Source: Pocillopora verrucosa
Lineage: Eukaryota; Cnidaria; Anthozoa; Scleractinia; Pocilloporidae
Assembly (NCBI RefSeq): GCF_036669915.1
Contig: NC_089325.1
Coordinates: 15,522,963 to 15,586,962 of the forward strand
DNA: 64,000 nt
Direction: 5' to 3'
Part shown: piece after piece, positions 16,261 to 64,000 of the stretch
Position numbering within the stretch: the first letter of the stretch is position 1
Layout of the letters: each line of letters starts with the position of its first letter
Program-made: the position numbers and the translations under genes
The notes under the pieces: generated by a model
What the model saw: only the letters and a program-made list of their open reading frames with translations
What the model was told of the DNA's origin: nothing
The model's database searches: none

Positions 16261-19200
16261 ATGAGCGATCCTGTTGCCATTCGGTAAGCTTTAGCACCAT
16301 CCTTGTTTTTGTTCTTCTGAGGTTGTTTTTAGCATTTTACAGAGTTAATCTTTTGGTGCAGCTGTAGTAATTGGCTAGGTTCCATGTTTGCTTCTTTTCC
16401 TAGAGTTCTCATCGACGATGGCACGCCGCGAATGTCGTTTCCTTTCCGAATTCATCTTTCCTTAACGGTCTTCAGGCTGAAACAAATGATAGAGGCGCAA
16501 GAGGGTTTTACTGTTGGAGAACAAGATGTTTTCTTTCACGGAAATCCGGTTGGTAGCTTATGTTCCGTAGTATGTGCTAGAAACTGCATGCCGGAATGGA
16601 ATTTTTTCATGTCCGCGCGCGATCGAGGACAATGCAAAGCTAATCGCGCATGAGAGTCACGCTGAAGTGGTGCGTGCGTTCGAAGCTTTACCTGATTGCT
16701 TCAGGTTTAATTCGTCGTCTTATTTCCTGGCTAAATTTTTCTTACCACTAAATCTTATTGAATCAGCTGCAAAGCAATAAACGATGAAAGCTGCGTTCGA
16801 GTTTCTTTCGAAATGTCTTTCGAAATGCACTCCCACATGCTACAAAGGATCGAAACTGTTCCTTGAAGCGAGCTTTGCGCTTATTAGAAGTCTCGTGCAT
16901 AAGCTTGGTAAAGATCGTGCTCAAGAAAGTTATATTGAAAAGATTCATGCACACATATGTTTGGCGATATTAACAATGCAATCTTATATTTCTAACGTGA
17001 CGCGCAGACTATTCGCGGCATAAATGAGCGTTGTTAGTATATTGTGTGATGACCTCCCGGGGATATGACTTTTAGATCAATACTTGCTTCTTTTCCGCTC
17101 TTCAGCTTCAAGACAATCTCACATTAGGACAGCAGGGAGTTATGGAAGATACCCAACTTGATATTCGAGTTAATTTCCAAGGTAAAGTATCAATCTAAAG
17201 TATTCGAGAACTTTATCAGTGTGCGGGTTTTGTTCTCTGTCATGACATGAATGTTTTTGTGTCATGAATAATGATTTGTTTCCTAGGTTAGTAAATCGGG
17301 TTAATACCACGCAAATCATGGATCTTCTCTTTATGCTGTTGTTGCTAGTGAAAGTGATTTAAAAGTATTGTTTTCGAAGAGATTGTTCGGTAATTAAATC
17401 TCTCAGTGATAATGTAATTTGCGTAGGCTTTGGGAATCACGCCGTGTAAATTTATGTCATAGTTCTCTCAAAGAACTTTTTGTTCCAGTGTGAGGTAAAC
17501 TTTATTCCCGGACGCCCACAAGAATGCCTGTTATTTGCGGTTTCTTTCAATTTATTTTGCCTGGGAAACAGGGCAGATGTACAAGACATAAATCAGTAGA
17601 AGGAATGCACAAACTTTTGCCATGGCCTAACGAAACGATGGCGAAAAGAGTTGAATATGTTTTGACAAATTTAATTGTCTTATTGGTACATATTTGTACG
17701 ACTAAGTTTATTTTAAAGGTTACGTTTTGTCTGCCATTGGAGACGGATTATTTTTTTCTGTATTATCTGTAGAATTAAGTTAGAAACTGGATCGGCCTGA
17801 GAAATATCTTGTCAAGATATTTGTTCAAGCAACACCGAAACCCACAGTAAGATTTTTTCTTTCAGAATATTGCAGATGTCGTTTCTCATGGATAATAGTT
17901 TAGTGTGGGCAGCGATCTAATCTTGCGTGGAAACTTTTCATTTTAATTTCTTTTGTTTTCTCCTAACTTGATAATTAGTGAAGTGTGATTTATTTTTCTT
18001 CAAGAGAAAATGAAGTGAAAATCAGTACCTGTTTCCAATTTTATTTGATTCGGATCTTTCGATAGTTAATTGCTACAGAGAGGTAAAAAAAAAATTTGAT
18101 ACTGATCAAATCCAAGTGAGTTATTTCTTATTTTAATGGGAAATACTAGGATTTTATTGTCGTTCTTACACCAGTGAAGGAAATACTTTCAATTCCCCTA
18201 CTTAAATCACAGCTTAAAACCAAGTCGAAGTGCTCCCTGTGCAGCTCTTGAGGAAGTGAAACTAGTCTAAGTCTTTCACTTTCATGTATAATTTTTTGTC
18301 TGAGAAATTGAATTGAATGTTTCATTAGTGAGTGGGAGGGGTAACGAAACCTCTAGATACACTCCTCTGAAATAAAACAAAGGGTTGGCGACAAAAGAGA
18401 TAAAATAGTCATGGTCAGTGATACTCAAGTGCCTTAATTTTTGGATTCTGTTGTTTGAAGTCTGCAAACAAGTGATGTAAATTAGATTGTGCATGATGTG
18501 TGCACTGAGGCTAACTCTAAGATGTATTTTTCAGGAGGGAAGTGACTTTGCCATAACCCCTCTGGTCTTAAGATCTCATCAGAAATTCTTGCGTCTGTCT
18601 GTTATGCAATTCTTTTGATGTTCCTTTGGAGAATTTTGTGTTAGATCAAGTTGTAATCACCTAATTGAAATTTTGGTGTATTCTCATCACTTGTCTCCTT
18701 GATATTGTATCAATATTGTAATGAGAAATTCTGTCTTGATCACTGGTCACTTGGTCACTTAGCAAACATCTGTAGTGGTTTCCATTATTTATCAGGGTCA
18801 CCAACAGCAATTACTCAATCAATTTGAAGAACTCAATATCATATCTTTTTCTATGTATTTATTTGAAAGGAAATGTGGGGGTGTATGTAAAATGTTGCTG
18901 ATAACACAATATTGCTATAAGTGAAAAAAAGCCACGTCTTTCCTCTAGTCCAATATTTTCCCAACTCCACTGTGTTTCTTTAAATAAGAACTGACGTAAA
19001 TTTTTGGAGTTCTTGGAACCAATATTCGTTCATATGCAAAGAACAGTACAAAAATAGAATCTTAACTACACATGTCACAAGGAACTATTGTGAAAGACAT
19101 GGATTCCTTCAAGTGACAGATTTTATCACTATAACATGTTTTTTCTTTTGCGTTAAAAGCATACTTAGCCAATTAGCTTAAGCACATACCTTAATTATCA

Positions 19201-21483
19201 GTTAAATAGTATTGGCCTACAGGCAAATGTGTCATAGAATTTTCCACCACGTGTGGAATCATAGGTGTATTTAGAGGGAGTGCTACTCAGGGACGTCTTC
19301 TCCCTAACCTCTCCCTCCTCAAAATGTAATTTTGTTACAAGATAGTTAAAAAGGAATTGTTTCAAGGCATTTATGTGTCATTCAGTTTTTATCACAATAA
19401 AGCTAAAGTTAGATTTGAGCCAGAAGTTTCACATTGAAAAACCTGAGTAGTTACTGTTGTGGTAAGGCATCACTTTGAACTGAAAACTTTGCTCTTTTAT
19501 TAATGTACAAGACTGTGCAGTAAGTTATCATTTGCTCTGACAAAGGGCTTAGGTTTAAAATGTCAGCTTAGAAATTCTTTATGGTGGCCAGTTTATGTGA
19601 TCAACTCAGTTCATGATACTAAACTATCCTATTCACTGAATTAGTTTCTTCTCAAAGCTCTAGCAGGTGGACAGGCAAAACCTCTGGGTGTACTCTTTTC
19701 TCTTAGTGTAATTGTGAGACTGATATGTTAAAAGCATTGTGTCCATCAATCTCATTCAACTTTTTTTTGTAAACAATAACTAATTTACTTAAAATGTTTC
19801 CTATGGGGGACAAGCTCTCAATAAACCTTTTTGGGCTTAATGCAAAGATCCCTTGTCTGAATGCTTGTGTTTGATAATTTTGATAGATATTTAATGCTCC
19901 TACTTAAGTTTCACCCTTTCCACCCTAATATCAGTATCCATATCCTTCATACTCTTCTCTACACATTTCATTTGGTACTGACAGGGGAATTCATTCAGTG
20001 ATCAAAGCTTCTTAGGTTGGGGGTCATTTCATATATTTTCATGATCTTAATAAATGATTCAGCAGTGTACTGTAAGGAGACATTACAGCAGTAGGTGTGT
20101 AAATGTTTAAAACAATATTGTTGCTTCTGCCAGTGTTCACTGCTGATTTCACAATGTCTTTTTCCCCAGACATTCCGTCTCCAACAAGAAAGAAAGGTAG
20201 CACATCAACATCTGAAGATTGTGTCGTACCAGATATTGATGATGAAGATAATGTGTTTAACTTTGAACAGCCCAGAGTGCCATCTGGTAAGGAAGAAAAT
20301 TAAAGAAATCCTTTTTAATTTGAATGATTCCTCAACCGTCACAAAACACAAAAACGTTTTGCATTATTTTGCTAAATGCAGAAAAACTGGTTATTGTTAC
20401 ACATTTACATGTATACAAATCATTAGGTGTGGGTGATAATATCGTGTGTGAAGATTGTGCAAAATTATCTGGTAATGGCAACATTGATTTAGATTTCTGT
20501 GCTGAAACCTCTTTGTACACAGTTTTTATTGATTTTTTTTTCTGATCTCTTTACTCTTGTCTTTATTTGATTACAATTAGTAGGTCTAAGGAAAAGTAGT
20601 ATTTTAATTAAGTTATGAATTAATTTGCAATATCAGATTCCAGGCTTGTGCTTGTTTTATCACTAACCCATTCAGCTTAATATCAGGGGAGAGTATTTCA
20701 GTACTGAACATACAAATGTGATGGCTTTGAAATTATTATTATTATTATTATTATAGTAATATATTATTACTTTTTTGGGGGTGGGGGGTGTATCAAGAGC
20801 AATTCAACAAAGGATAACATTTTGTATGTATACAGACATATACAATGTTCAGGAAAAGAGTGTGATCAGTTCTGCCTCAATTTTTTAGTGATTCTTTCCT
20901 TGATAAAGATAGATTCTAGTAAAAACTAGAAAGTTTTTTTTGAATAAAGGCAGACTGTCTTTCTTGGGACCAGATGTTAACCCTTTGGTGCCTAAAAGTG
21001 ACTAGATTTTAATTTCCCTTGACAATATCACCCCTGAATCAAGCATTAAGGTCACAAACTAAAAGTAATGACCACTGACTTAAGAAGCTCTGGATTGTTT
21101 TACAAATTCTCTTTGTCAGCACCTTAAGAAATGTATTAACAGCAGTTTGGAGAATATGCATTCTGATGTTATGGTGTAAAGGGTTACTTATTCTCTTATT
21201 ATCTCATTTAGATCCAAGAATGTGGAATAAATGGGAAGTGATGGAATGGCTGAAATGGGCAACAGAGAGATACAGCATAAGGGATATAACAGCAGATAAG
21301 TTCTTGATGAATGGGAAAGGCCTGTGTATGCTTGGTGTGGAGGGGTTCCTCTATAGAGTTCCACGAGGCGGAGATGTTCTTCATGGTGATTTTAATAAAC
21401 GGGTGACAGCAGCAGTGGAACAGTCACGCCATATGCAGAGCTATCTTAATCCTGGTGCATCAAACTTCTACTATGTGTATTGA
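16261..21483 (+). CDS. OST-like (ubiquitin-like) + Pointed domain protein lacking ETS domain
   Basis: Exons 16261-16283, 16404-16548, 17106-17181, 20170-20286 and 21212-21483 join in frame with GT..AG introns and give 210 residues. The ATG at 16261 is preceded by an in-frame TGA at 16222. Residues about 5-82 look ubiquitin-like: after the FRLKQMIEAQEGFTV helix come LQDNLTLGQQGV and LDIRVNFQ, the pattern of the GABP-alpha OST domain. Residues 83-120 are a Ser/Thr then Asp/Glu-rich linker. Residues about 124-190 are a Pointed/SAM domain (WEVMEWLKWATERYSI, FLMNGKGLCML, RVPRGGDVLH) like ETS-family PNT domains. Translation ends 20 residues after the domain and no ETS domain follows, so direct DNA binding by the usual means is not expected. 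A protein-interaction or dominant-negative role is inference. The last two coding exons could belong to a longer isoform that I cannot see. Confidence 0.8.
18535..18745 (-). repeat. Diverged MITE, family B, inverted
   Basis: Read on the minus strand this resembles 29655-29864: an AATTTCT..ACAATATTGATACAATATCAAG segment, AAGTGATGAGAATA, and an AGATCTTAAGACC-like end. It is diverged, with no clean termini, and lies in the 3 kb intron before the exon at 20170. Confidence 0.5.
19890..20040 (-). repeat. Diverged MITE, family A, inverted
   Basis: On the minus strand it matches the central and right part of the family A element, including GAGAATATGCAT-like and TGATGTTAGGGTG-like segments. It has no intact terminal repeats and is intronic. 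Confidence 0.5.
20736..20777 (+). repeat. (ATT)n microsatellite with G-run
   Basis: An imperfect ATT trinucleotide array runs into a T/G-rich tract. It lies in the intron before the last coding exon of the PNT gene. Confidence 0.8.
20977..21187. repeat. MITE, family A, abutting a splice acceptor
   Basis: It starts TTAACCCTTTGGTGCC and ends GTGTAAAGGGTTA, homologous along its length to 1201-1412. Its right end lies only about 24 bases before the splice acceptor of the last coding exon of the PNT gene (AG at 21210-21211). The polypyrimidine tract follows directly. Confidence 0.75.
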
Positions 21484-24120
21484 AGAGATGAGATAATTTA
21501 TTTGAAAAAGGACAGACTATTGAAAAGAGTATGATATAATGTGGGCAACCAAGAGTCACTGATGCTGCTTACAAAGATTGTACAATAATTATTTAAAAAA
21601 ATTTGCTATTTGTATATATTGTGCATTTGAATGGGGTTTGCCTTAACGCGCTCAAATTCGCAGTTCATGTAGTCATACTGGTCAAGATTTGTTACAGCTT
21701 TTGAATGTTATTGTATTTTACAAAGACCAATTTCACAAAATGGGCTGGGGTTAATTTATTTATCTAAAAGATTTTTTTAAGATTTTTGTTTTACTCTGGG
21801 GCCTATCGTTCCTCATTATAAATGAAATTGAGAATTCACTTGTCAACAAGACAAGCTGATGTGAAAAATATTGTGTTTTTTGGATTGATTTATTTTTTCT
21901 CTTTTCATGTAACTTTTTATGCATGTAAAACTTTGTTTCTGTGTTTTTATTGTAAGGTCTGTGTTGTTTTATTTGTTTGGTTTACTGCCAAGTATAAATT
22001 GTGAAAGCCATGGATCATAAGAATCCACGAGTCAAATTTAATAGCTTTGAACCTTTACAGTGATTAGCAGTGTTCTCCTTTTCAAGAGGTAACTGGGAAA
22101 TTTACCACCTGTAGTACCTTATTACCTACTAAAATTTCTAAAAGTGCAAGGAATTCTTGAAAATTCAACAGTTAAAACGAATGCTCTACCTGGAAATTTC
22201 CTTTACCTGTCTTACTTAAAATATGGGAGAATGCTGGATCAGAGTCAAATTTTTATTATTATCTTGAAGTATACAGTTACTATCTGGATGTGCTGGTAAA
22301 ACTAGATCTTTAGTTCAAGCCAGAAATGTAGAGAGTAAATGTTTATGGAGTTGACACAAAATGGAGCCATGTATGCTTAGACTATGACATACATCTACAG
22401 CTAACCACTACCTAGAGTTTAGTTCTTACAAACTTGAGCTATGGAGATCATTAGAGGATTAAGACAGTCCAAAAATTTCTCTCTACCAGAGTTTTAAAAG
22501 AGTAGATAAACATTGTTGCAGGGAAGGAAAGTTGACAATTTGAGCAGCATCTTGTTGCCGAATTTTTTACTTTACCTTTTCTGTATCACCTCCAAAGCTT
22601 TCATTGGTAACATGCATATCCTCAGTATTTATTTTCATTCACACTTTCTTCTTGGTAAAAACTGTTGCACTTGTGTGGTAAAGTAATATTCTGCTTTAAA
22701 AAAAATGCTTACAGGAATTTAAGAAAAAAGATCTGTATATTTTAGCGTCGAATATTAATTGAATTGTTATCTCGGAAAGTATGGAAAGCCCAAAAAAATT
22801 AAAGAGCCTACCGATTATTAAGAAAAAAAGTTATGAATTTCAAAAAGTTATCTCGAAGTTGCGCCTTTTCATTTCACAGCAACTAAGCATTCTCCTGTCT
22901 TCAAACTGTTTTCTTTAAAAAAGAAAGACTAATTTAGATGTACAGTTGTTTAACAACGTTCGTTTTATTTACGTTACATTCAAAGCATGGTAAATCGCTG
23001 GGCCAGATTTTATTTCAATGAAACTGATAATAAATAAATTTTTGTTCTTCCTGATACCTGACTTGTCTTGCAAAATCTTCATTCCTCGAACGTCACAAAA
23101 TGACCATAGACCATGTTTCCTGGATCACACCCCAATCATCCCGGGTCGGAGATCGAAGGGAGAAAACCCTGGTAAAGAGTTTAAACATCCTCATGATTTT
23201 TTGGTGAGCTGTGTTACGTCTTTTCCAACCGTGCTCAGCTTGAAAAATGTGTCGGATTTTGTTGGATTAAGATATTTTTTAATTGGAATATTTCGAAATC
23301 TCATTAAAATCAGCAACCAATTATCAGAAAAACATGACGAAATGCTGGGGGAAATTCTTCATTTATTTATCAACTGAGATACTGTAAAAAAAATCCAATT
23401 ACGTAACAAGAGGCTGAAGTCCAAACTCCGCAGAAAATATGTATTAAACTTGGTAAATGAACCGCAACAGTTCGCAACAATAAAAAGACTTCGAAACTAC
23501 CTAAAATCCACGTCAGTTTTCTAATAATAAGGTTAGAGTTCTTAAACGTGATTGGCTAGTTTGTGAAATCACGCGCATCGCGCGTGAATACAAAGATAGT
23601 GCAAAGGGGGGGGGAGGGGGGTGGGAAGAGGAAGAGAAAAAAAACTTGTATCATAAAAACGAAAGAGATTTTCTACAGATACTACGGGCGCCCTGATTGG
23701 TCAGAAGCCTGTCGTTCATTGCACCAGTAAACCTAAAGAAAAGTGAAGTTTATTTTGTAATTTACTACAGATAATATTCGGTTGTGTGGAATTATTTTTG
23801 TTTCGTTTTGTTTTCCTAGACCTAGATGACGATGAGGTTTCAACAAGTTGACGTTAGTATGACAAGTAACCATTTGGAATTATCTGATAAATTTATGCAA
23901 GTCGTGTCAGGTGCAAATATAATTTGCATAATCGAGCTCGCCGAATAACGAATTTTCGCGTGTTAAAGTGGAATTATTACGACACTACATTCTAACGTGT
24001 TTCTGCTTCAATTTATAGTCGCTCTTCCTTCTAAGTAAATATTTATCAAGCGGATAAGCGTCTTACAATTGAACAAATTACGCCTCACAAAGAAATAAGT
24101 CAGATTAAAATCACCACGGG
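21484..24120. other. Intergenic / probable PNT gene 3' UTR
   Basis: This AT-rich stretch follows the stop at 21483. The first clear AATAAA on the + strand is near 23032, 1.5 kb downstream, so the 3' UTR is either long or uses a variant signal. An open frame at 23018-23377 (119 codons) has no recognisable domain and is not annotated as a gene. A G-rich tract lies at 23608-23636. Confidence 0.5.
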
Positions 24121-42739: not shown

Positions 42740-44449
42740 TTGAGGCAGTCAGATAGAAGAGCGGCTATGTGTGTTGAAAACATATTCTTTAAAACAAAGA
42801 AACTGCAAATGAAAATACTATTAGGAAATTCCCAAGTTGCTCTTAGAAAGTGCAAAGGGAATAGCAGAACTTTAAATGCAGCACAACTTAAACAAGAAGG
42901 AGCATTAGAGAAATTGATTCATCATGATGATGGATTTCAGTTTCTTAGAGCATTAAGAGGTTCCCTACCATAATTTGAAAAAGCAAAGAAAGACTTGTTT
43001 GCCATGATAAGACAATTAGGACCAGCCTTCAGTGTTATTTTGTAGTTTCTCTTCAGCAGAAACTCAGTGGATCCATTTGCTCAGAATACTTGGAGAGTTG
43101 GTTGACCACAAACAGTACACTGATACTCATCTGGAAAATATGAACTGGGATGAAAAATGTAGGTTAATTCAAAGTGACCCAGTATCATGTGCCAGACATT
43201 TTGATTATCAGATCAGTCAATTTCTCACTAACTTCCTCTTGAATAAGTGCCAACCTCTAGGAAGGATATCTGACTGGTTCTATAGAGTAGAATTTCAACA
43301 ACGAGGTTCACCTCATATCCATATGCTTATATGGCTAGAAAGTGCACCAGTGTTTGGAATTGATGATGATGCAACTGTTACAACGTTCATTGATCAGATT
43401 GTAAGTTGTAAATGGCCAATTGATGACCCACAACTGCAGAAACTAGTGAACAGACAAATTCACAGGCATTCTCACACATGTCGAAAGAAGTCAAAGAGTG
43501 AATGTCAATTTAATTACCCGCAACCTCCTATGAGAGCAACTGAAATCATGTATCCTTTAGGTTCAGATATATCACAACACGAAATTAAAAAACATAAAGA
43601 AACTTGGAAAACTATTAAAAAGCAACTAAATGATTTAAAGGATGGTGAATCAATTACTTTTGAGGAGCTGCTTCTTAAACTAAGTATTACTGAAAATAAC
43701 TATCGATTAGCTATCAGGACAGCTTTGAATTCTCCAACTATATTTTTAAAAAGAGAACCAAGTGAGTTAAGAATTAATAGTTACAACCCAACTTGCCTTA
43801 AAGCATGGAGAGCAAACATGGATATTCAATTTGTTCTTGACATCTATGCGTGTGCTATGTATATAGTATCATATATTTCTAAAGCACAAAAAGGAATGAG
43901 TAAACTTTTGTGACAAGCATGTGCAGAAGCAAGGAAAGAAAATTCTAACATCAAGCAACAAGTCAGGGATATTGGAAACAAATTTTTAAATAGTGTTGAA
44001 ATTAGTGCACAAGAAGCTGTATACATTGTTCTCCAGCTCCCTATGAAGAAGTCATCACAACGAGTGGTATTCATAAATACTGCACCTCCCGATGAAAGAG
44101 TGCAGCTCCTCAAGCAACTTAATGAAATGAAAGAAATGGAAGATGATTGTGAAGAAGTGTATACAACTGGTCTGTTGCAGAGATATGTAAAACGTCCTTC
44201 AGCCTTGAACACCTAACATTAGCAGATTGGGTAGCATGGTATGACTTGTCTCAAAAGCCTTATGTAAAGAAATCTTTTCAAAATGACACAGATAAACTTC
44301 CTTTAGAAACAGGCATTGATGAAAATGATGATACCCTTCCTGATGAAAGTAGGAGCAATAAGGAAACAAATAGAAAAAGATCATCAGCTAGAATTATTAG
44401 AAGTGTTTGGTTTAACAAAGAAAAAGACCCAGAGAAATACTACCGTTAA
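42740..44449 (+). pseudogene. Helitron Rep (HUH) domain, broken
   Basis: Frame 42740-42973 has the typical opening (NIFFKTKKLQMKILLGNSQ, LIHHDDGFQFLRALRGS) and stops early. Frame 43032-43913 carries [28 protein letters not shown] and [20 protein letters not shown] followed by HMLIW. The H-I-H of that segment is the metal-binding HUH motif of rolling-circle replication initiators. A TGA at 43911 interrupts the frame, homologous coding continues to about 44204, then shifts frame into 44246-44449. The family nicks and joins single-stranded DNA during rolling-circle transposition. This copy cannot make a full protein. Confidence 0.85.
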
Positions 44450-44529
44450 TTATGCTCTTCACATCATGAAGAAATGAGGAAACTGACTTAATATCCAATT
44501 GTTCTTCTTATAAGGCCCGATTTTTACTT

Positions 44530-46300
44530 ATGAAAGATGCCATAAATGACCAAATGAAACAATATGCTGTTTACAGCGATGAAATTGATAAAATTCAGGA
44601 GCACATAAATGATAATATTCTGAGTGATGATCAGTTTCATTCAATAGCACCATTTACTCAAAATATAGAATACCAAGATGAGTATGAAGGTGTTCATGAC
44701 CTACATCCTGACTTCAATGAGAACTATGACCTATCAGAAGATGTTGGAATTCCTTCTGTGACAACAAGTACTGAACCACTAATATTAAATGAGCTGCAAG
44801 ACAATGATTATAGACAATTAGTACAAACACTAAATAAAAAGCAAAAATAGTTTTTTTTATCATGTCTTGCATCTTATTAAAACATCAGACAAACCATTTT
44901 ACTATTTTCTCTCTGGAGGAGCTGGAGTGGGTAATTCCCATCTTGTCAAAGCATTATATCAGGCAGCATTAAAATATTATAACTCCAGACATGGAGAAGA
45001 TTTCCAAGAAGTCAAAATATTGTTGCTTGCCCCTACTGGAAAAGCTGCTTTTTCTATCAGAGGTAACACAATACATAGTACCTTGCAAATACCAGCATGC
45101 CAATCACTTAAGAATGACAAACCACTAGACTCTAGTAGACTTAACACTTTGAGATGCAAACTTCATGCACTTAAACTAATATTTCTAGATGAGATATCTA
45201 TGGTAGGAAATACCATGTTTAATGTACAAATAAACAACAGATTAAAAGATATTAAAGGCAGCAAAGAGGCATTTGGGGGTGTTAGTGTTATTGCACTGGG
45301 TGATTTATTCCAGCTAGAACCAGTTATGGATAGATAAGTGTTTAAAGACATGAAGGACTCAGAGTATGGAGCTCTTGCTCCCAACCTCTGGAAAGAACTT
45401 TTTACCATATTTGAATTACAAGAAATCATGAGGCAGAGAGAAAGTAAACAATTCGCTGAAATTCTTAACAGATTAATAGAAGGTAATCACACTACAGATG
45501 ACATTGCCAAACTTAAAGAGAGATGCATTTCAGAAAATTGTAGAGACTACCCAACTGATATTCCCCATTTTTTTACACAGAATTCTAAAGTAGATGAGTG
45601 GAACAATAGAGTCCATATGGCAGCTACTGGTGATAAATACACCATTAGAGCTTTAGACAGTGTTATAGGTGCAAACTCTCCAGAACTCAGAAGTAAGATA
45701 TTAAACCAAATACCCCTAGATCCTAGAAAAACCAAGCAGTTAGCCTCAAACCTTCAACTTGCTGAGGGTGAGAGAACAGAGATAGCATCAAATGTAAGAA
45801 CTGATGATGGTATCACAAAAGGGGCAAGTAATATTATCAAAAAGATTACATTATATGACAAAAGTAGACCATCTGGTATAATTTGGGTACAGTTTGACCA
45901 TGTTGATGTTGGAGAAAAAACTAGATATGATAACAAGCAATTGTATTTGCAAGGAATTGAAGCTACATGGACTCCTATCAAACCTATCATTGCACAATTT
46001 GCAGTAGGAAGAAACAGAACAGCCCAAGTTGTAAGAAAGCAGTTTCCATTAAGACCTGCAGCAGCCAAAACCATACATAGATCACAGGGTGACACAGAAA
46101 CTAGAATAGCTGTTAACTTTAACACCAAAAGAGCAATACCTCATGTGCATTGTGTAGGATTCAGCAGAGTAACAACAGTTGATGGACTTTACATAACTGA
46201 CCTTTCTGAAAGTAAAATAGCTGTTAATCATGATGTTAAAGTTCACATGCAGCAGTTACGCACAGGTCACCATACCAAACTTTCTAATACTCCGATCTAT
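44530..46300 (+). pseudogene. Helitron PIF1-like helicase, broken
   Basis: An acidic linker (44530-44850) precedes the helicase. The Walker A segment GGAGVGNSHL has Asn (codon AAT at 44933-44935) where the family has the ATP-binding Lys. Walker B is LIFLDEISM, followed by FGGVSVIALGDLFQLEPV. A TAA at 45335 interrupts the frame, which resumes in the same phase at 45338 with the C-terminal half (ELQEIMRQRES, FTQNSKVDEWNNRV, AAAKTIHRSQGDT, VHCVGFSRVT). Such helicases unwind DNA 5' to 3'. The missing Lys and the stop both predict loss of activity. Confidence 0.85.
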
Positions 46301-47123
46301 GAATTAGACCCAAATACTTTTAAAATTTGCTTCCTTAATTCAAGATCTCTGCATAAACATATTGAAGACATACGTAGTGACCTAAACTATTCAAATATGG
46401 ATATCAATATATTCTCAGAAACAAGACTGTACCATTTAGATAGCAATGCCAGCTATGCCATAAGTGGGTATACTATATTTCGAAATGACAGTGAATCTGC
46501 AATACTCACTACAAGACCCTTTAGTGAAACAGCTGTATACACTAAAATCCCCTTTAAGCCTGGATATCTACTGGCCAAAAACACCAATGGAGTAGAAATA
46601 ACCATTATCAAAGTTGTTGCCATTCCCCATGTTAATATCATAGGTGTGTACAGGTCACCGAAAGTGTCAGTCCAACAAATGTGTCTAGCATTGACCCAAA
46701 TTCTCAATAGTTGCTGTTCTGATTTTAATGTTTTTCTTGGGGATTTTAATGTCAATTACTTAATTCAAAAAGAGAAAGTTCCCCTCAATAACTTGTTTAT
46801 AAGAGAGAAAAATTACAGACAATAATTGGTATCATCCTATCCTAATTAAATTAGTGTTAATTTTTTAATATAATGTATGTTTTTCTGTTTTATTTTTCGA
46901 TTGTATTTATATTTACATTTTTACGTAATTATATTGATTTGTAGTTACCTTTAGAGGACCCTTCTGTAAACCACTCTTTCTGTGATGTTGGCATCCTCAA
47001 TAAAGATTAACTATTATTATTATTATTATTATTATCAATTTGCCTGAATCACAAGTGACTGTACACATTCTGGAAACATATTTCACTGATCATAAAGCAA
47101 TATGTGCATTGATTAAAACTTGA
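46300..47123 (+). pseudogene. EEP-type endonuclease fused to helicase, split by insertion
   Basis: The same frame as the helicase C-half continues into a nuclease of the CR1/L1-like retroposon type: CFLNSRSLHKHIEDIRSD, NIFSETRL, IIGVYRSPK and FLGDFNVN. The frame ends at 46823-46825. The expected C-terminal end, with the family's D-H pair (YFTDHKAICALIKT, stop at 47121-47123), reappears only at 47037, after about 210 bases of unrelated sequence. A C-terminal nuclease of this kind distinguishes Helentrons from plant-type Helitrons. Confidence 0.8.
46826..47036 (+). mobile_element. LINE/SINE-like 3' tail inserted in the nuclease
   Basis: This AT-rich insert ends with GGCATCCTCAATAAAGATTA and a run of ATT/TTA trinucleotides (about 47010-47035), a layout typical of the 3' ends of L2/CR1-like retroposons or their SINEs. 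AATAAA lies at 46999-47004. Coding sequence of the Helentron nuclease flanks it on both sides, with roughly 15-20 residues missing, so the insertion may have come with a small deletion. Confidence 0.6.
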
Positions 47124-52650: not shown

Positions 52651-54491
52651 GTGTGGACTCGTTATGAAAGAAACAAAATGTTCTAATCTTACAGGTTCAA
52701 TTTTCATTCTCCTTTTCTCCTGGTTTGGAAGAGGAGCAGCTCTTCCGCGTATCAGGCTTCGCGAAAATCCCGCTTCTTGCTAAGATAAGTTCAATCTCTG
52801 TCTCAGCACCTGAAAATTGTAAAAAACGCTTGTGGCTTCCTCTGCGCCACAAACGCCACCTACAATATCATGTAAAGATTAAGACATTCTTTTTCTGCTG
52901 GAGTTAAAGCAACCGTTGTCTTTATTCCCTTCACCGACGATTATTACGCTTTTGTTTTTTACTTTCGTTAACCCATCACATTTGTTTTCCGTGGGAAAAT
53001 TGTATTGTTATTCTCGTTCCATAAGGTTTTCACTGTACGGTTTATATTTGTGAAATTTTGTAAAGTCTATTTCTTTTTTGTATCGTTCTCGTTCATGATG
53101 GCAATATATTTGTTTAGATCTTATATGTGAGGCAGAATGAATTGTTTGTTGATCTCGTTACGTGACAGATTATCATATGTCACGCAGAGTGACAGGAACC
53201 TGTGAAAAATTAAAATCCGGCAAATCGCTAGCGTTACCTGCCGTTTTGTGCGGGACCCTTTTTCTGTGAGACGTCAATAAAACCAAAATTAAGATCAAAG
53301 TAGACTAAACGTAACTGGGTTGTGACGCGCTGTAGAAAATGACAACAACAAGTAACTTTATTTTACTCATCCCGGCTCAGTGGCTTCAATGAGTTAGCCG
53401 GTCGGCCACCTTCACACCAAATTGCAAAGGACAGTATTTCGAAAATATCTTCCAAGCGGAATAACAAGGGCCTATAAAAGATTTCTAAGGTAAGGAACTA
53501 TTTATGTCAAAGCAAAAATAAAAAGCTAAGTGCGGCTGCGACTCAAACAATGCTTTGCTTGTGTCATTGCAATGTTGATTTTGTTCATTTCAATATAGCG
53601 CCATTTACAATTTTAGCGAAGTTTGGTTGGTTGGTACATCAAAACAGCGCAAGATACCAGAAAAATGAAACAATGAATTTGAAGACCCACCTTATAAGCC
53701 CTCGTGATAGTATTGCTGGAGATTTTGAGAAACTACCACATGCATTTTTGCCACACTACATTAGGCCGGGTTTGGCATGAATTAAATATGGCGAACACGT
53801 TCACTGGTAATTAACCCGTGGTTTCGTCAGGAAGGACACGATACAAAAAATATCATTATATCTTGGTAATGGAAGGCCACATGTATATATTTATAGCTAG
53901 AGAAGTCCTGCTGTTGCATTTTAGTTCATGCAAGGACGGCCTGAAAACTGCATAATTTAGAGCTCGCAGGCACTCATTTTCGATCATGCAATTAGTATCG
54001 GTTTATTTCCGTTAAAATGAATATTTACAGAAACTAACCTCACTTCACTTTAAGTAGTACCTATAGCTACCTGTAGACAAAAAATGGGACGAAATGATTT
54101 TTTTACCATGTCCGCGATTTTGTTATTTTTCTTTGATTTTTAGAGACATTCACTCTTACCATTCAAGCTGAAGGCTGTTCCTCTTTCTAGTCGTGTTTAC
54201 GGAAGGATGTTAGACACCTCAACTTCTCAAACAGTTTGGATTCTGCGTTGTACGGTTTATCCATTGTTCAGCTCATTGAAAGTGTCTGAAACTCTGAGAA
54301 ACTAACACATGTTTTTTTCTTTGAAGAGAAAAAGAAAATCTGCAAATGTGTTATAACTCAATGCAGCTAGTGATCGATGCGAAAAAAATTATCGACAAGG
54401 AAAGCTTGCAGTTCAACTAATTTAGTTTCAAGAAAACAGAGGACAGAGAAGTAGATCACCGACAAGGAAGAGACACACTCTCACCTGCGCG
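52651..54491. other. Intergenic, upstream of GPCR 1
   Basis: No convincing gene is seen. Open frames at 52725-52907 and 53550-53780 lack domains. The right end (about 54230-54491) is the 5' flank of GPCR 1 and is similar to the 5' flank of GPCR 2, so it probably contains the promoter and 5' UTR. Confidence 0.5.
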
Positions 54492-55565
54492 ATGAATTCC
54501 AGCAGGGCCGACAACAACTTTATTCCACCTGAATGCAGCGTCTACAAAACAGTGGGAGGGAAGCTATCCGATTCTGATACCCAAGCCAGAAACGTTCTTA
54601 TCTTTATCGTAATCACCAACATCGTCCTATCTCCCCTCACTGCTACTTTCAACATGTTATCGATGATAGCTGTAAAAACTAAAAGGCGCTTGAGAGAGCA
54701 CAAGTCCAACATACTGCTTGCTTGTTTAGCGGTGACCGATTTGGCGGTGGGTGTGATTGTTCAACCAATGTTAACTGTCGTTTCAATCATCGACCTGGTC
54801 GGCGAAATAACGAGAGAATTGTGTTTATTACAGATCTGCACACAATTTATGACGAGTCTTTTAGTTAACTCGTCTCTTATCCACCTGGCTTTGGTGAGTG
54901 GAGAAAGATATTTAGCCACGAAGCACGTTTACGCCTATGCAAACGGACTCGTTACAGAGGTTCGCCTGCTGGTTGCTTCAGGACTGGCGTGGCTCCTTTC
55001 CCTGATCTTGCACATTCCTCTTTTTGTTAAGATATCAGTTTTTTATGCCACAAACAACATTTTCATCGGAATTTCTCTCGCTATAATAACTTTCTGCCAT
55101 GTAACCGTCTACCGCGGGGTTCGCAGACAGCAAAAGACACTTTCAACCCAACAAGTCACAGAAGAGGCAAGGCAGAAAATTCTGAAAGACAGGAAGGTTT
55201 TCAAACTGACAGCTACAATTGTTGCAGTGCTATTTTTCTGTTACTTACCAATAACAGTTGTTAGAATTGTATTAAACTGGTCAGGTTTAATGTCTATAAA
55301 AGTAAGGTTTACAATTTTATTCTTTTCCGTGTCGTTCACACTATTTAATTCATTCCTTAATCCACTTATTTACGCCATTAGGATACGACAGTTTCGCGTA
55401 GCCTTCATCGAATTGTTATGTAGAACCACAAACTTAGCCGAAGCTGAGGAAATGGAAAGGAACATGTTTAGACGGCCTAATGCTGTGGCAGTAATGGACA
55501 GAGGACAAAAACAAGAAGAAGAACATCATGATGAAGGACAGCAAATATCGATCGTGAGCACGTAA
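54492..55565 (+). CDS. Class A (rhodopsin-like) GPCR, orphan, paralog 1
   Basis: A single-exon gene of 357 residues with seven membrane segments at about 33-60, 75-97, 108-135, 155-176, 183-207, 234-258 and 272-297. Class A hallmarks: LACLAVTDLAV in TM2, G-E-R-Y at the end of TM3 (ERY in place of DRY), a Trp in TM4 (SGLAWLL), FFCYLP in TM6 (the FxxCWxP region with Tyr for Trp) and NPLIYA in TM7. TM1 has TFNML in place of the usual GN. The N-terminus is short with an N-S-S sequon and no signal peptide. The acidic, Gln-rich tail is a likely intracellular C-terminus. The ligand is unknown; amine, adenosine and melanocortin-like receptors share this short-loop style. The 5' flank and coding sequence match the gene at 58104. 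Confidence 0.92.
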   Translation: MNSSRADNNFIPPECSVYKTVGGKLSDSDTQARNVLIFIVITNIVLSPLTATFNMLSMIAVKTKRRLREHKSNILLACLAVTDLAVGVIVQPMLTVVSIIDLVGEITRELCLLQICTQFMTSLLVNSSLIHLALVSGERYLATKHVYAYANGLVTEVRLLVASGLAWLLSLILHIPLFVKISVFYATNNIFIGISLAIITFCHVTVYRGVRRQQKTLSTQQVTEEARQKILKDRKVFKLTATIVAVLFFCYLPITVVRIVLNWSGLMSIKVRFTILFFSVSFTLFNSFLNPLIYAIRIRQFRVAFIELLCRTTNLAEAEEMERNMFRRPNAVAVMDRGQKQEEEHHDEGQQISIVST

Positions 55566-57077: not shown

Positions 57078-58103
57078 CATATATTAACATTACCGAATTG
57101 AGTAATGAACATCGGCAGTTGACAGCGACTTTTGCCAAATGTACTTTACACGAATGAAACACTTTATGTACCTAGTATAATTTTACTCAATGTGCATATC
57201 TTTTTTTGTCTGTGGGAAGCTTTAGAAGACTCCATCTAATTTTAGGAACATCACAGGAAAGTTGTTCTTGTTACATTTACGAATTGCGATGTGAAAATTG
57301 TCGACAACGATAGAAAATAAACCGGCAATGTAGCTGATAGCTGAACTGTTGTTCTTGTGTTTGATTTTTTCGCTTTTTTATGTATGAATCCTGATGTCCA
57401 ATGAGAACAAAAATGTGAACCACGCGTGGTTTGGATATCTTATCCAAAACACGTGTGATTTTCATCTTGGTTTTCATTAGGTTTCGAAACTCATGCACGT
57501 GACGAAGTTGGATCGCTAAGACAACTAATGAATGAATTATTAGTTTTAAAATAAGTGTCAAAAGTTTCATTTCCCGAATATTTTAGAATACGACAGTGTA
57601 GTGGTGCCTTCGTATCCCTTGTTAACAACTATTGGCAAACTGAACAAAGAGGATGGGAAAATGCGTCGGCAGAGCAGGTGTGGAAATATACCAAGTAATT
57701 CTTACAGCTCAAAACTCAGGAACGCAATAGGAGTAGTTCATGGCAAGGTTTTATTGTAGTGGCGAGTAATTAATTTTTTTTGGACGTACTAAACCGGAAT
57801 TTTCCTGGCCATGTTGACGGAAAGAGCTACAACACCCACGCTTGAGTTTCCAAAAGAAAGTTTGGATTCTGCGTTGTTCGTTTATTCATTTTGTAGCTCA
57901 TAAAACTGCATTCAAGTCGTGGAAACGGTCAGACGCTTCTTTTTCGGAAAATAAAAAAAATAAAGGGTGCAAATATCATATCATTCGGTGAGACCAGCGA
58001 TAGCGATAACGGTCAAGAGCTCACAGTCCAACCGCTTAGTTTCAACAAAATAGAAGAAAGAGAGGTAGATCCGCAACAAAAAGAGACAAAAGCTACACAA
58101 GCG

Positions 58104-59183
58104 ATGACTTCGAGCCATGTAAGCAACGACATGACCCCTGCTGAATGCGGCGTCTACAGAGCAACGGGAGGAAAGCTTTCCGATTATTCGGACGCTCAAG
58201 CCGTTCGAATCTTCCTCTCGGTCACCTTCACGATCACATGTCCTCTTGGTGCCACTTTCAACTTGTTAGTGATAATAGCTGTGAAAACTAAAAGACGTTT
58301 GAGGGCCCACAAGTCCAACGTACTGCTTGCTTGCTTGGCGGTGACTGATTTAGCAGTGAGTGTGATTGTTCAACCAATGTTAATTGCCCAGTCGAGTCTC
58401 AACTGGGCGGGTGGAACCACAAGCTCGAATGTATCGTGTGCTTTACATTTGTGTGCACAATTTATTACAAGTGTTCTATGTGAATCGTCTCTTATCCACC
58501 TGATTTTGATAAGCGGAGAACGATGCTTAGCCATGAAGCACGCTTACGCGTACAGCAACGGACTCGTCACAGAGGTACGTTTACTGGTTAGCTCAGGTCT
58601 GGCGTGGCTCCTTTCTCTGATCCTGCACATTCCTCTTTTTGTTCATAGATCAGTTTTTTATGCCACAAACATCATTTTTATGTGCATTTCTCTCGCTATC
58701 ATAATTTTCTGTCATGTAACTGTCTACCGCGAGGTTTGCAGACATCAAAAGACACTTTCAACTCACAAAGTTACGGAAGAAGCAAGGCAGAAATTTCTGA
58801 AAGACAAGAAGGTTTTCAAACTGACAGCTACAATCGTTATAGTGCTATTTTTCTGTTACTTGCCCGTAACCGTTTTTAGATTTGTTTTGAGCCAGTCAGG
58901 TTTCATGTCTTTAAAAGTAGGTTTCATCTTCGCATCCTTTTCTGTGTCTTTTGCAATATATAATTCATTCCTTAACCCGCTAATTTACGCCATCAGGAAA
59001 CGACAATTTCGTGTAGCTTTTATCGAATTATTGCGCAGAAATACAAACTTAGCTGAAGCTCAGGAAATTGAGAAGAAAGTTTTTGGATCAGCAAATGCTG
59101 TGGGAGTTAGTAATGGACAGAGGAAAAAACAGGAAGAAGAAATTCAAAGCGAAGGACGGCAAATCTCAAACTTGAACTTGTAA
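58104..59183 (+). CDS. Class A (rhodopsin-like) GPCR, orphan, paralog 2
   Basis: A single-exon gene of 359 residues, collinear with the receptor at 54492 and very similar throughout (KTKRRLRAHKSN, LACLAVTDLAVSVIVQPML, SGLAWLLSLILHIPLF, FFCYLPVTV, NSFLNPLIYAIRKRQF). The TM3 motif is G-E-R-C, so the Tyr of the D/ERY box is replaced by Cys, unlike paralog 1. The extracellular loop before TM3 differs most (SSLNWAGGTTSSNVSCALHL) and adds an N-V-S sequon, so ligand preference may have diverged. A poly(A) signal AATAAA lies at 59785-59790. The ligand is unknown. Confidence 0.92.
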   Translation: MTSSHVSNDMTPAECGVYRATGGKLSDYSDAQAVRIFLSVTFTITCPLGATFNLLVIIAVKTKRRLRAHKSNVLLACLAVTDLAVSVIVQPMLIAQSSLNWAGGTTSSNVSCALHLCAQFITSVLCESSLIHLILISGERCLAMKHAYAYSNGLVTEVRLLVSSGLAWLLSLILHIPLFVHRSVFYATNIIFMCISLAIIIFCHVTVYREVCRHQKTLSTHKVTEEARQKFLKDKKVFKLTATIVIVLFFCYLPVTVFRFVLSQSGFMSLKVGFIFASFSVSFAIYNSFLNPLIYAIRKRQFRVAFIELLRRNTNLAEAQEIEKKVFGSANAVGVSNGQRKKQEEEIQSEGRQISNLNL

Positions 59184-62971: not shown

Positions 62972-63625
62972 TTAAGAAACATTCATCATCTTCAAATAGA
63001 AAAATCCTTGAGCAGCCATGGCATCCACAACCGCGTGACCTTTTTGGGGGTAAGTAGAGCCTGGGTAACCTCCAGAGGGAGACCATTCCACATCGTGACC
63101 TTTTTGGGGGTATGTACAGCCTGGGTAATCTCCGGAGGGAGACCATTCCATGTCTTCTTCCCCCTCAAAACTGTCGTCCAAACGACTGCGTGTATTGATG
63201 GTCCTAAATGGGCTTTCAATTTTCAGAACTTCAACGTCAAGGCATCTTGGACGACCTCTCTGTAAGTTGACGATATATGGCTCAAGCGTGACTTCTTGTC
63301 CTGAACGGTCGATTATAATTTTCATTTGAAGAAATCTTCCCTCTGTCCTATGGCTGCAATTTGCGACGTCTTTCTCACTCCTTCCTGAGCTAAAATACTT
63401 TGAAGAATGGCCATAATACCAATTACCGATATGCGAAAGGGAAGGATCCTTTTTAACTTCGCAGGAATGCTCTATTGAAACGATGTGGATCACAGGTTCG
63501 CCATTGGTAGTCCACAAACCAAACATATTTCCACTGGCCTCTCGCTCGGAATTGGAAAGAATAAGCTTCTTAATGGCAGCATGTTCCCTCTGGAAAATGT
63601 AAAGCTTCTCCTTAGAAGTAGCCAT
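62972..63625 (-). CDS. Degenerate JAB/JAMM-like protein with 20-aa tandem repeat, 217 aa
   Basis: The coding exon starts at the ATG just after a splice-acceptor-like TTTAAACAG (minus strand), so a 5' untranslated exon is likely upstream. Residues about 1-90 resemble the start of a JAB/MPN fold: EREASGNMFGLW with a glutamate before the GLW strand, VIHIV, then HIGNWYYGHSS and SEKD. A catalytic JAMM has E, H-x-H and S-x2-D. Here the first His position is Tyr71, His73 and S83-x2-D86 remain, and spacing is longer, so metalloprotease activity is doubtful. Residues about 158-197 are two copies of a 20-residue unit (EWSPSG.YPG.TYPQKGH). The end VVDAMAAQGFF is shared with the gene at 60912. The JAB assignment is by pattern only and could be wrong. 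Confidence 0.55.
   Translation of the reverse strand: MATSKEKLYIFQREHAAIKKLILSNSEREASGNMFGLWTTNGEPVIHIVSIEHSCEVKKDPSLSHIGNWYYGHSSKYFSSGRSEKDVANCSHRTEGRFLQMKIIIDRSGQEVTLEPYIVNLQRGRPRCLDVEVLKIESPFRTINTRSRLDDSFEGEEDMEWSPSGDYPGCTYPQKGHDVEWSPSGGYPGSTYPQKGHAVVDAMAAQGFFYLKMMNVS
63035..63154 (-). repeat. 60 bp coding tandem duplication
   Basis: Units 63035-63094 and 63095-63154 differ at only a few positions and keep frame, giving two 20-residue repeats in the protein at 62972-63625. The similarity suggests a recent duplication. Confidence 0.9.
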
Positions 63626-64000
63626 ACCTGTTTAAAGAAGGAGAAGACTAAAACACAGAACGCCGGAAAGCATTGTTTACAGCAAGATTTCTGTTTAGCA
63701 AGCTCTTTACTCATGCGCAACGTGTCAGTGGATTTCTGGGAATTTCGGATGCTAATTGCATTTCAATGAATCTGGTTCCGTGGTCCGAAATCCACTTCCA
63801 ATAGAATTAATTTCAATTAAGCCATGAAATTTAAGGAAGTTTATAAATTATTTTCAAGATTGTGACAGTTATTGGTGACTTTTCATTAAAAATTCGTCAG
63901 TACATCTTTCATAACTCAAATTTCGTTTGTAACTACGAGATTCATTAAGAATTCTGTTTTCGAAACTCGTTTCTAAGTCGAAATGTCAATGGTTGTCTAT

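Follow-up and report, generated by a model that had tools for sequence, protein, structure and literature searches.

A gene for a ubiquitin-like and Pointed domain protein without an ETS domain in the coral Pocillopora verrucosa: a possible independent regulator of the TEL/Yan type

The stretch of DNA analyzed here, the window, covers 64,000 nucleotides of Pocillopora verrucosa (C14:15522963-15586962 in a 353-Mb genome of 52 contigs, of which C1, C4, C6 and so on are the others) and contains a five-exon gene for a protein with a ubiquitin-fold domain, a linker and a Pointed (PNT) domain followed by the stop. We refer to it as the UBL-PNT gene, for ubiquitin-like (UBL) and PNT. The exons add up to 633 bases in a single frame, 210 codons plus TGA, all four introns have GT-AG borders and the start phases of exons 2 to 5 are 2, 0, 1 and 1. 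The donor directly after exon 2 (gttggt after 16548) is weak. Downstream of the stop a motif scan found an ATTAAA at 22798, ahead of the first AATAAA pair. The features of the gene are as follows.

16261..16283, plus strand: exon 1, with the ATG, MSDPVAIR and the first strand of the ubiquitin fold; donor gtaagc; in-phase join
16404..16548, plus strand: exon 2, bulk of the ubiquitin-like domain; PF00240 match
17106..17181, plus strand: exon 3, end of the ubiquitin-like domain; cag acceptor; phase-0 join at GNP/LQD; PF00240 match
20170..20286, plus strand: exon 4, acidic and Ser-rich linker; phase 1-1 exon
21212..21483, plus strand: exon 5, PNT/SAM domain (PF02198, E 2e-19), short tail and stop TGA
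23029..23038, plus strand: overlapping pair of AATAAA polyadenylation-like signals, the first AATAAA past the stop (motif scan only)

Both domains were recovered by Pfam far above chance. The ubiquitin model PF00240 matched residues 15-76 of the product at E 2.3e-10, scoring 40.5 bits over the whole protein and 43.2 bits for the domain alone against a curated cut-off of 25.4, and the SAM_PNT model PF02198 matched residues 115-179 at E 2e-19. An ETS domain was sought in three ways. Searches of the window by tblastn with three human ETS domains returned no hit better than E 0.25. An ETS hidden Markov model (HMM) run on open reading frames (ORFs) of at least 15 amino acids from the window, 30 kb upstream and other blocks (284 kb) found a single confident domain, that of ERG on C6, besides one hit at chance level on the window's minus strand (E 0.85). 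The genome-wide scan with PF00178, whose counts like those of the other genome scans are lower bounds, placed ETS domains at 22 or more sites on C4, C6, C8, C9, C10 and C11 and none on C14. There was also no GTRAG donor inside exon 5. The sequence-only reading of this DNA, an intact five-exon gene with phase joins that encodes an N-terminal ubiquitin-like fold and a Pointed module and lacks an ETS domain, was borne out by these searches. Rfam and tRNA scans of the window returned no matches, and no contaminating relatives were found in a scan of prokaryote genome contigs. The ETS scan also recorded nine ETS-domain matches within 68 kb at C11:17461919-17529734 and two further ones at C11:20644819-20652988, on a contig without a match in the PNT scan; these are apparently a lineage expansion of ETS genes.

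Genome-wide, the number of PNT matches to PF02198 rose from four at E 0.001 to eight at E 10, in a scan that could miss a very divergent PNT domain or one broken over several exons. The extra four (C13, C4, C3 and C14:11.4 Mb) fell below the curated cut-off and none lay beside an ETS place. Only one of the four confident matches, that of ERG, adjoined an ETS domain, at 1.1 kb, and the other three had no ETS match nearby. Published passages on Nematostella give 12 Ets genes and mention NvERG as a Pointed-containing one (PMC11193209, PMC10491807), which fits the picture here. Two of the confident matches lie in the following loci.

C6:19228036-19229852, minus strand: PNT-only paralogue (L028:8039-8260, first exon L028:9852-9687); ends in PNT
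C7:24141392-24141595, minus strand: fourth, divergent PNT (L004:1396-1683); PF02198 E 3.1e-12; no ETS match on the contig

The first of these holds the nearest other PNT of the genome (C6:19228048-19228263, about 43-44% identity to that of UBL-PNT). It reads as a two-exon gene for a Mae-like protein of 129 residues, the first exon having been picked by eye; the last exon, of 74 codons before a TAA, encodes the PNT (Pfam E 1.4e-20). It lies about 55 kb from the ETS exon of ERG on the opposite strand; the 38 kb downstream yielded no ETS domain, and the 30 kb upstream no match to a ubiquitin-like domain. In a PNT tree of 14 rows and 69 columns, ten of the rows being human sequences, UBL-PNT and the C6 paralogue grouped at 83/95 and the pair joined ETV6/ETV7 at 68/91, a grouping that was not fully supported. 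A phmmer search against PDB chains, scored as best single-domain bits, ranked ETV6 (52.1) and Yan (51.4) ahead of ETS1 (48.2), Mae (1sv0_C, 46.4), ETS2 (46.3), ETV7 (46.2), GABPA (40.0), FLI1 (38.5), SPDEF (36.0) and ERG (32.1). Together these data lend modest support to a PNT domain that lies nearest ETV6/TEL, by small margins.

Hot spots of ETV6 association are covered in passages of PMC7949025. We mapped 17 ETV6 interface positions onto 14 PNT sequences and counted the sites identical to ETV6: 12 in ETV7, nine each in ETS1 and ETS2, eight each in UBL-PNT and the C6 paralogue, six in the ERG of this genome and five in human GABPA. An uncharged residue at position 93 together with a large hydrophobic one at 96 was present in 4 of the 14 sequences, namely UBL-PNT, the C6 paralogue, ETV6 and ETV7, while both ERGs, FLI1, GABPA, SPDEF and the divergent C7 domain carry Glu at 93. 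Sites 77, 79, 89, 93, 96, 97 and 112 of UBL-PNT are all hydrophobic or small. R105, D111 and V112 of ETV6 are retained in UBL-PNT; the C6 paralogue has R105 with Asn at 111.

Judged by its domains, the UBL-PNT protein resembles an independent regulator of the TEL/Yan type more than a shortened GABP-alpha, and it may be a PNT protein of the TEL/Yan/Mae class that serves on its own as an adaptor or antagonist, the explanation that we tentatively prefer. Its PNT would dock on other PNT domains through a contact between end-helix (EH) and mid-loop (ML) surfaces, the candidate partners being the ETS-less C6 paralogue, another copy of the protein and, less surely, ERG, the one ETS factor with a PNT that we found in this genome. 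Through its ubiquitin-like arm it would recruit an additional protein to the PNT partner, and the output of the ETS factor could be titrated or modulated without contact to DNA, in the manner of Drosophila Mae acting on Yan and PntP2. With TEL-type faces, a free PNT might either join or cap PNT assemblies; because a hydrophobic residue is kept at the mapped EH site, co-assembly would be as likely as capping.

Several observations weigh against assigning the protein to this class. The leading PDB scores (ETV6 52.1, Yan 51.4, ETS1 48.2 and Mae 46.4 bits) differ by small margins, and in the PNT tree one of the 11 inner branches was fully supported on its 69 columns. The plain count of ETV6-identical sites does not discriminate, since ETS1 and ETS2, which do not self-associate, reach nine, and the pattern at positions 93 and 96 was chosen after the table had been made. 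The K99-D101 salt bridge of ETV6 is lost on both sides in UBL-PNT (V and G) and likewise in the C6 paralogue. A structure prediction of the PNT exon alone from a single sequence gave a mean predicted local distance difference test score (pLDDT) of 41.7 and was not used. Finally, Mae is described in passages of PMC3355116 as having Asp at a key EH site, and UBL-PNT has V at ETV6 position 112, the EH position taken for the comparison. As one face of Mae is blocked by Asp and UBL-PNT keeps V, the proposed mechanism would not be an exact copy of that of Mae.

The ETS genes of the same genome suggest a wider arrangement. In an ETS tree built from 20 rows of this genome and 14 human ones (2 of the 22 ETS places were without a locus and were left out), the locus at C8:15.81 Mb (L011) grouped with ETV6/ETV7 at 98/93; the rival grouping of another locus (L016) with ETV6/7 was not rejected in the approximately unbiased test (p-AU 0.089). 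The 10 kb upstream of L011 yielded no PNT, and scans of C8 with PF02198 (E 10) and with an ETV6 SAM query found none either. It is conceivable, if rather doubtful, that the TEL/Yan repressor is split across genes here, with a TEL-type ETS gene lacking a PNT on one contig and TEL-type PNT domains in two ETS-less genes on two others, one of them fused to a UBL. In that case PNT domains would control ETS factors in trans, and UBL-PNT would be a dedicated bridge.

The domain order of UBL-PNT is that of human GABPA, and the motif RVPRG is common to the PNT domains of both. This would fit a truncated GABP-alpha duplicate, with OST and PNT copied from GABPA and the ETS lost, that competes for the co-activators of GABPA. 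However, the OST model PF11620 listed neither the UBL-PNT protein at a cut-off of E 10 nor its ubiquitin-like part alone, and the same model matched human GABPA at 111.1 bits and the GABPA of this genome at 28.8 bits. That separate orthologue lies on another contig.

C6:17984517-17992398, minus strand: GABP-alpha orthologue (L045 and L010); OST and ETS, with no detectable PNT between

Its ETS exon and human GABPA share 70.6% identity (78% over 81 columns), and in the ETS tree the two stand side by side, unresolved; holding them together was not rejected (p-AU 0.43). The OST is encoded by three phase-joined exons upstream of the ETS exon (PF11620, E 1.5e-6), found by reading the locus, the genome scan with PF11620 having been empty and uninformative by its own control. 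Neither the 10 kb upstream nor the ETS locus contained a detectable PNT, and the PF02198 genome scan (E 10) had no match at this place; the GABPA of this genome thus seems to consist of OST and ETS without a PNT, and to that extent the two genes look complementary.

At first sight the introns favor a GABPA origin. A phase-0 intron occupies the same aligned position in the UBL-PNT gene and in the OST of the own-genome GABPA, and both have a phase-1 intron near the domain end, at roughly the same place in a rough alignment of that site. Three interrupted ubiquitin-fold genes (L047-L050, with L047 and L048 as halves of one gene), chosen out of 95 matches by the position of the match end, served as controls. 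The phase-0 site was identical in L049, which by its sequence appears UHRF1-like, two codons on in L050, and at another place and phase in L048. The shared phase-0 intron therefore does not discriminate a GABPA origin, and the introns do not settle where the ubiquitin-like part came from. For the PNT, four groupings had been named, two of which were already present in the tree and two required the test. UBL-PNT with GABPA alone was rejected (p-AU 0.0057); the grouping of UBL-PNT, the C6 paralogue and GABPA was not (p-AU 0.14), which leaves a remote relationship of the pair to GABPA conceivable. The PDB scores also put GABPA (40.0 bits) behind ETV6 (52.1) and Yan (51.4). We set aside the GABP-alpha origin on Pfam, the PNT tree and the UHRF1-like intron control, and consider a truncated duplicate unlikely. 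The labels OST and GABP-alpha-like, which the sequence-only reading had given to the N-terminal domain and to the protein, thus gave way to a ubiquitin-like domain, a PNT not paired with GABPA and a GABPA orthologue elsewhere. The adaptor or competitor role that it proposed for an ETS-less protein is still plausible.

The PF00240 match would also suit a protein-turnover shuttle, with a UBL that binds the proteasome, p97 or a ubiquitin ligase and a PNT that delivers ETS partners to it. The shuttle proteins Rad23 and ubiquilin have this layout of an integrated UBL plus an interaction domain. In the alignment, read by eye, the site of Ile44 is F, His68 is D and a gap takes the Val70 site, with R next. 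The domain lacks a GG at its end and continues into the linker, so that the di-glycine of a conjugated modifier is missing. With these sites changed, the usual ubiquitin-receptor surface is lost, which argues against a shuttle and makes it improbable in our view. Lacking both the GG end and an Ile44-type surface, the ubiquitin-like arm is probably a fixed docking module with a partner of its own. An incomplete gene model, with an alternative last exon joining the PNT to something else, or a decaying pseudogene would agree with the weak exon 2 donor but is very unlikely given an open frame over five in-phase exons, strong E-values for both domains, a C6 paralogue that likewise stops soon after its PNT, no ETS match on C14 and no GTRAG donor in exon 5.

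The remainder of the window contains Helitron-like ORFs at 43020-46822 (Helitron_like_N, E 2.9e-18, and PIF1 helicase, E 1.9e-17); the long ORF that comes next matches no Pfam model. Two single-ORF genes for rhodopsin-family receptors lie at 54426-55565 and 57897-59183 (7tm_1, E 3.9e-23 and 4e-24) and are alike by eye. Two 60-base tandem copies at 63034-63150 fall within a minus-strand ORF (62972-63631). Elsewhere in the genome, 74 GFP matches were among the matches listed, all on C1, as would be expected of a coral-like anthozoan, with two large GFP-like clusters at C1:28.36-28.79 Mb and C1:0.67-0.88 Mb; many matches had internal stops.

The ETS domain is what defines an ETS factor, and the PNT has been studied as a built-in docking and polymerization module. 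Listings of the open-licence literature on cnidarian ETS genes and on PNT-only, UBL-PNT or OST proteins, opened in part, contained no report of a UBL-PNT protein. Among known systems, ETV6/TEL and Yan appear close to it in that the tree places ETV6, with modest support, nearest among the human PNT domains and the hydrophobic ML and EH sites may be compatible. UBL-PNT differs from them in having no ETS, in the loss of the K99-D101 bridge and in the added ubiquitin-like domain. The sea urchin Yan/Tel, in the passages of PMC6160229, has SAM and ETS in one protein. The human TEL2a isoform is another ETS-less PNT product, predicted to be SAM-only, and a TEL2 SAM construct inhibits TEL1; according to passages of PMC3355116, TEL2a is a splice isoform of an ETS gene, whereas UBL-PNT is a separate gene. 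GABP-alpha shares the succession of a ubiquitin-fold domain and a PNT, but UBL-PNT departs from it in that its N-terminal domain is not OST by Pfam, its PNT is unpaired with GABPA in the tree and the ETS is missing.

Mae/EDL resembles UBL-PNT as a PNT without an ETS in a separate gene; Mae is not known to carry a ubiquitin-like domain. Passages of PMC3355116 describe Mae as a fly SAM-domain protein that binds and inhibits Yan and PntP2 through their SAM domains, report inhibition of TEL1, ETS1 and ETS2 by the TEL2 SAM domain on its own, and state that as of 2012 no mammalian equivalent of Mae had been identified. If PNT domains without an ETS match nearby prove as common in other early-branching animals, it becomes directly testable whether the PNT and ETS domains were fused first or separate first. 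The fusion to a UBL would give a regulator of this sort a new way in which it might recruit partners. A Mae-like pair in an anthozoan would also speak for an early origin of ETS-less PNT regulators instead of their invention in flies.

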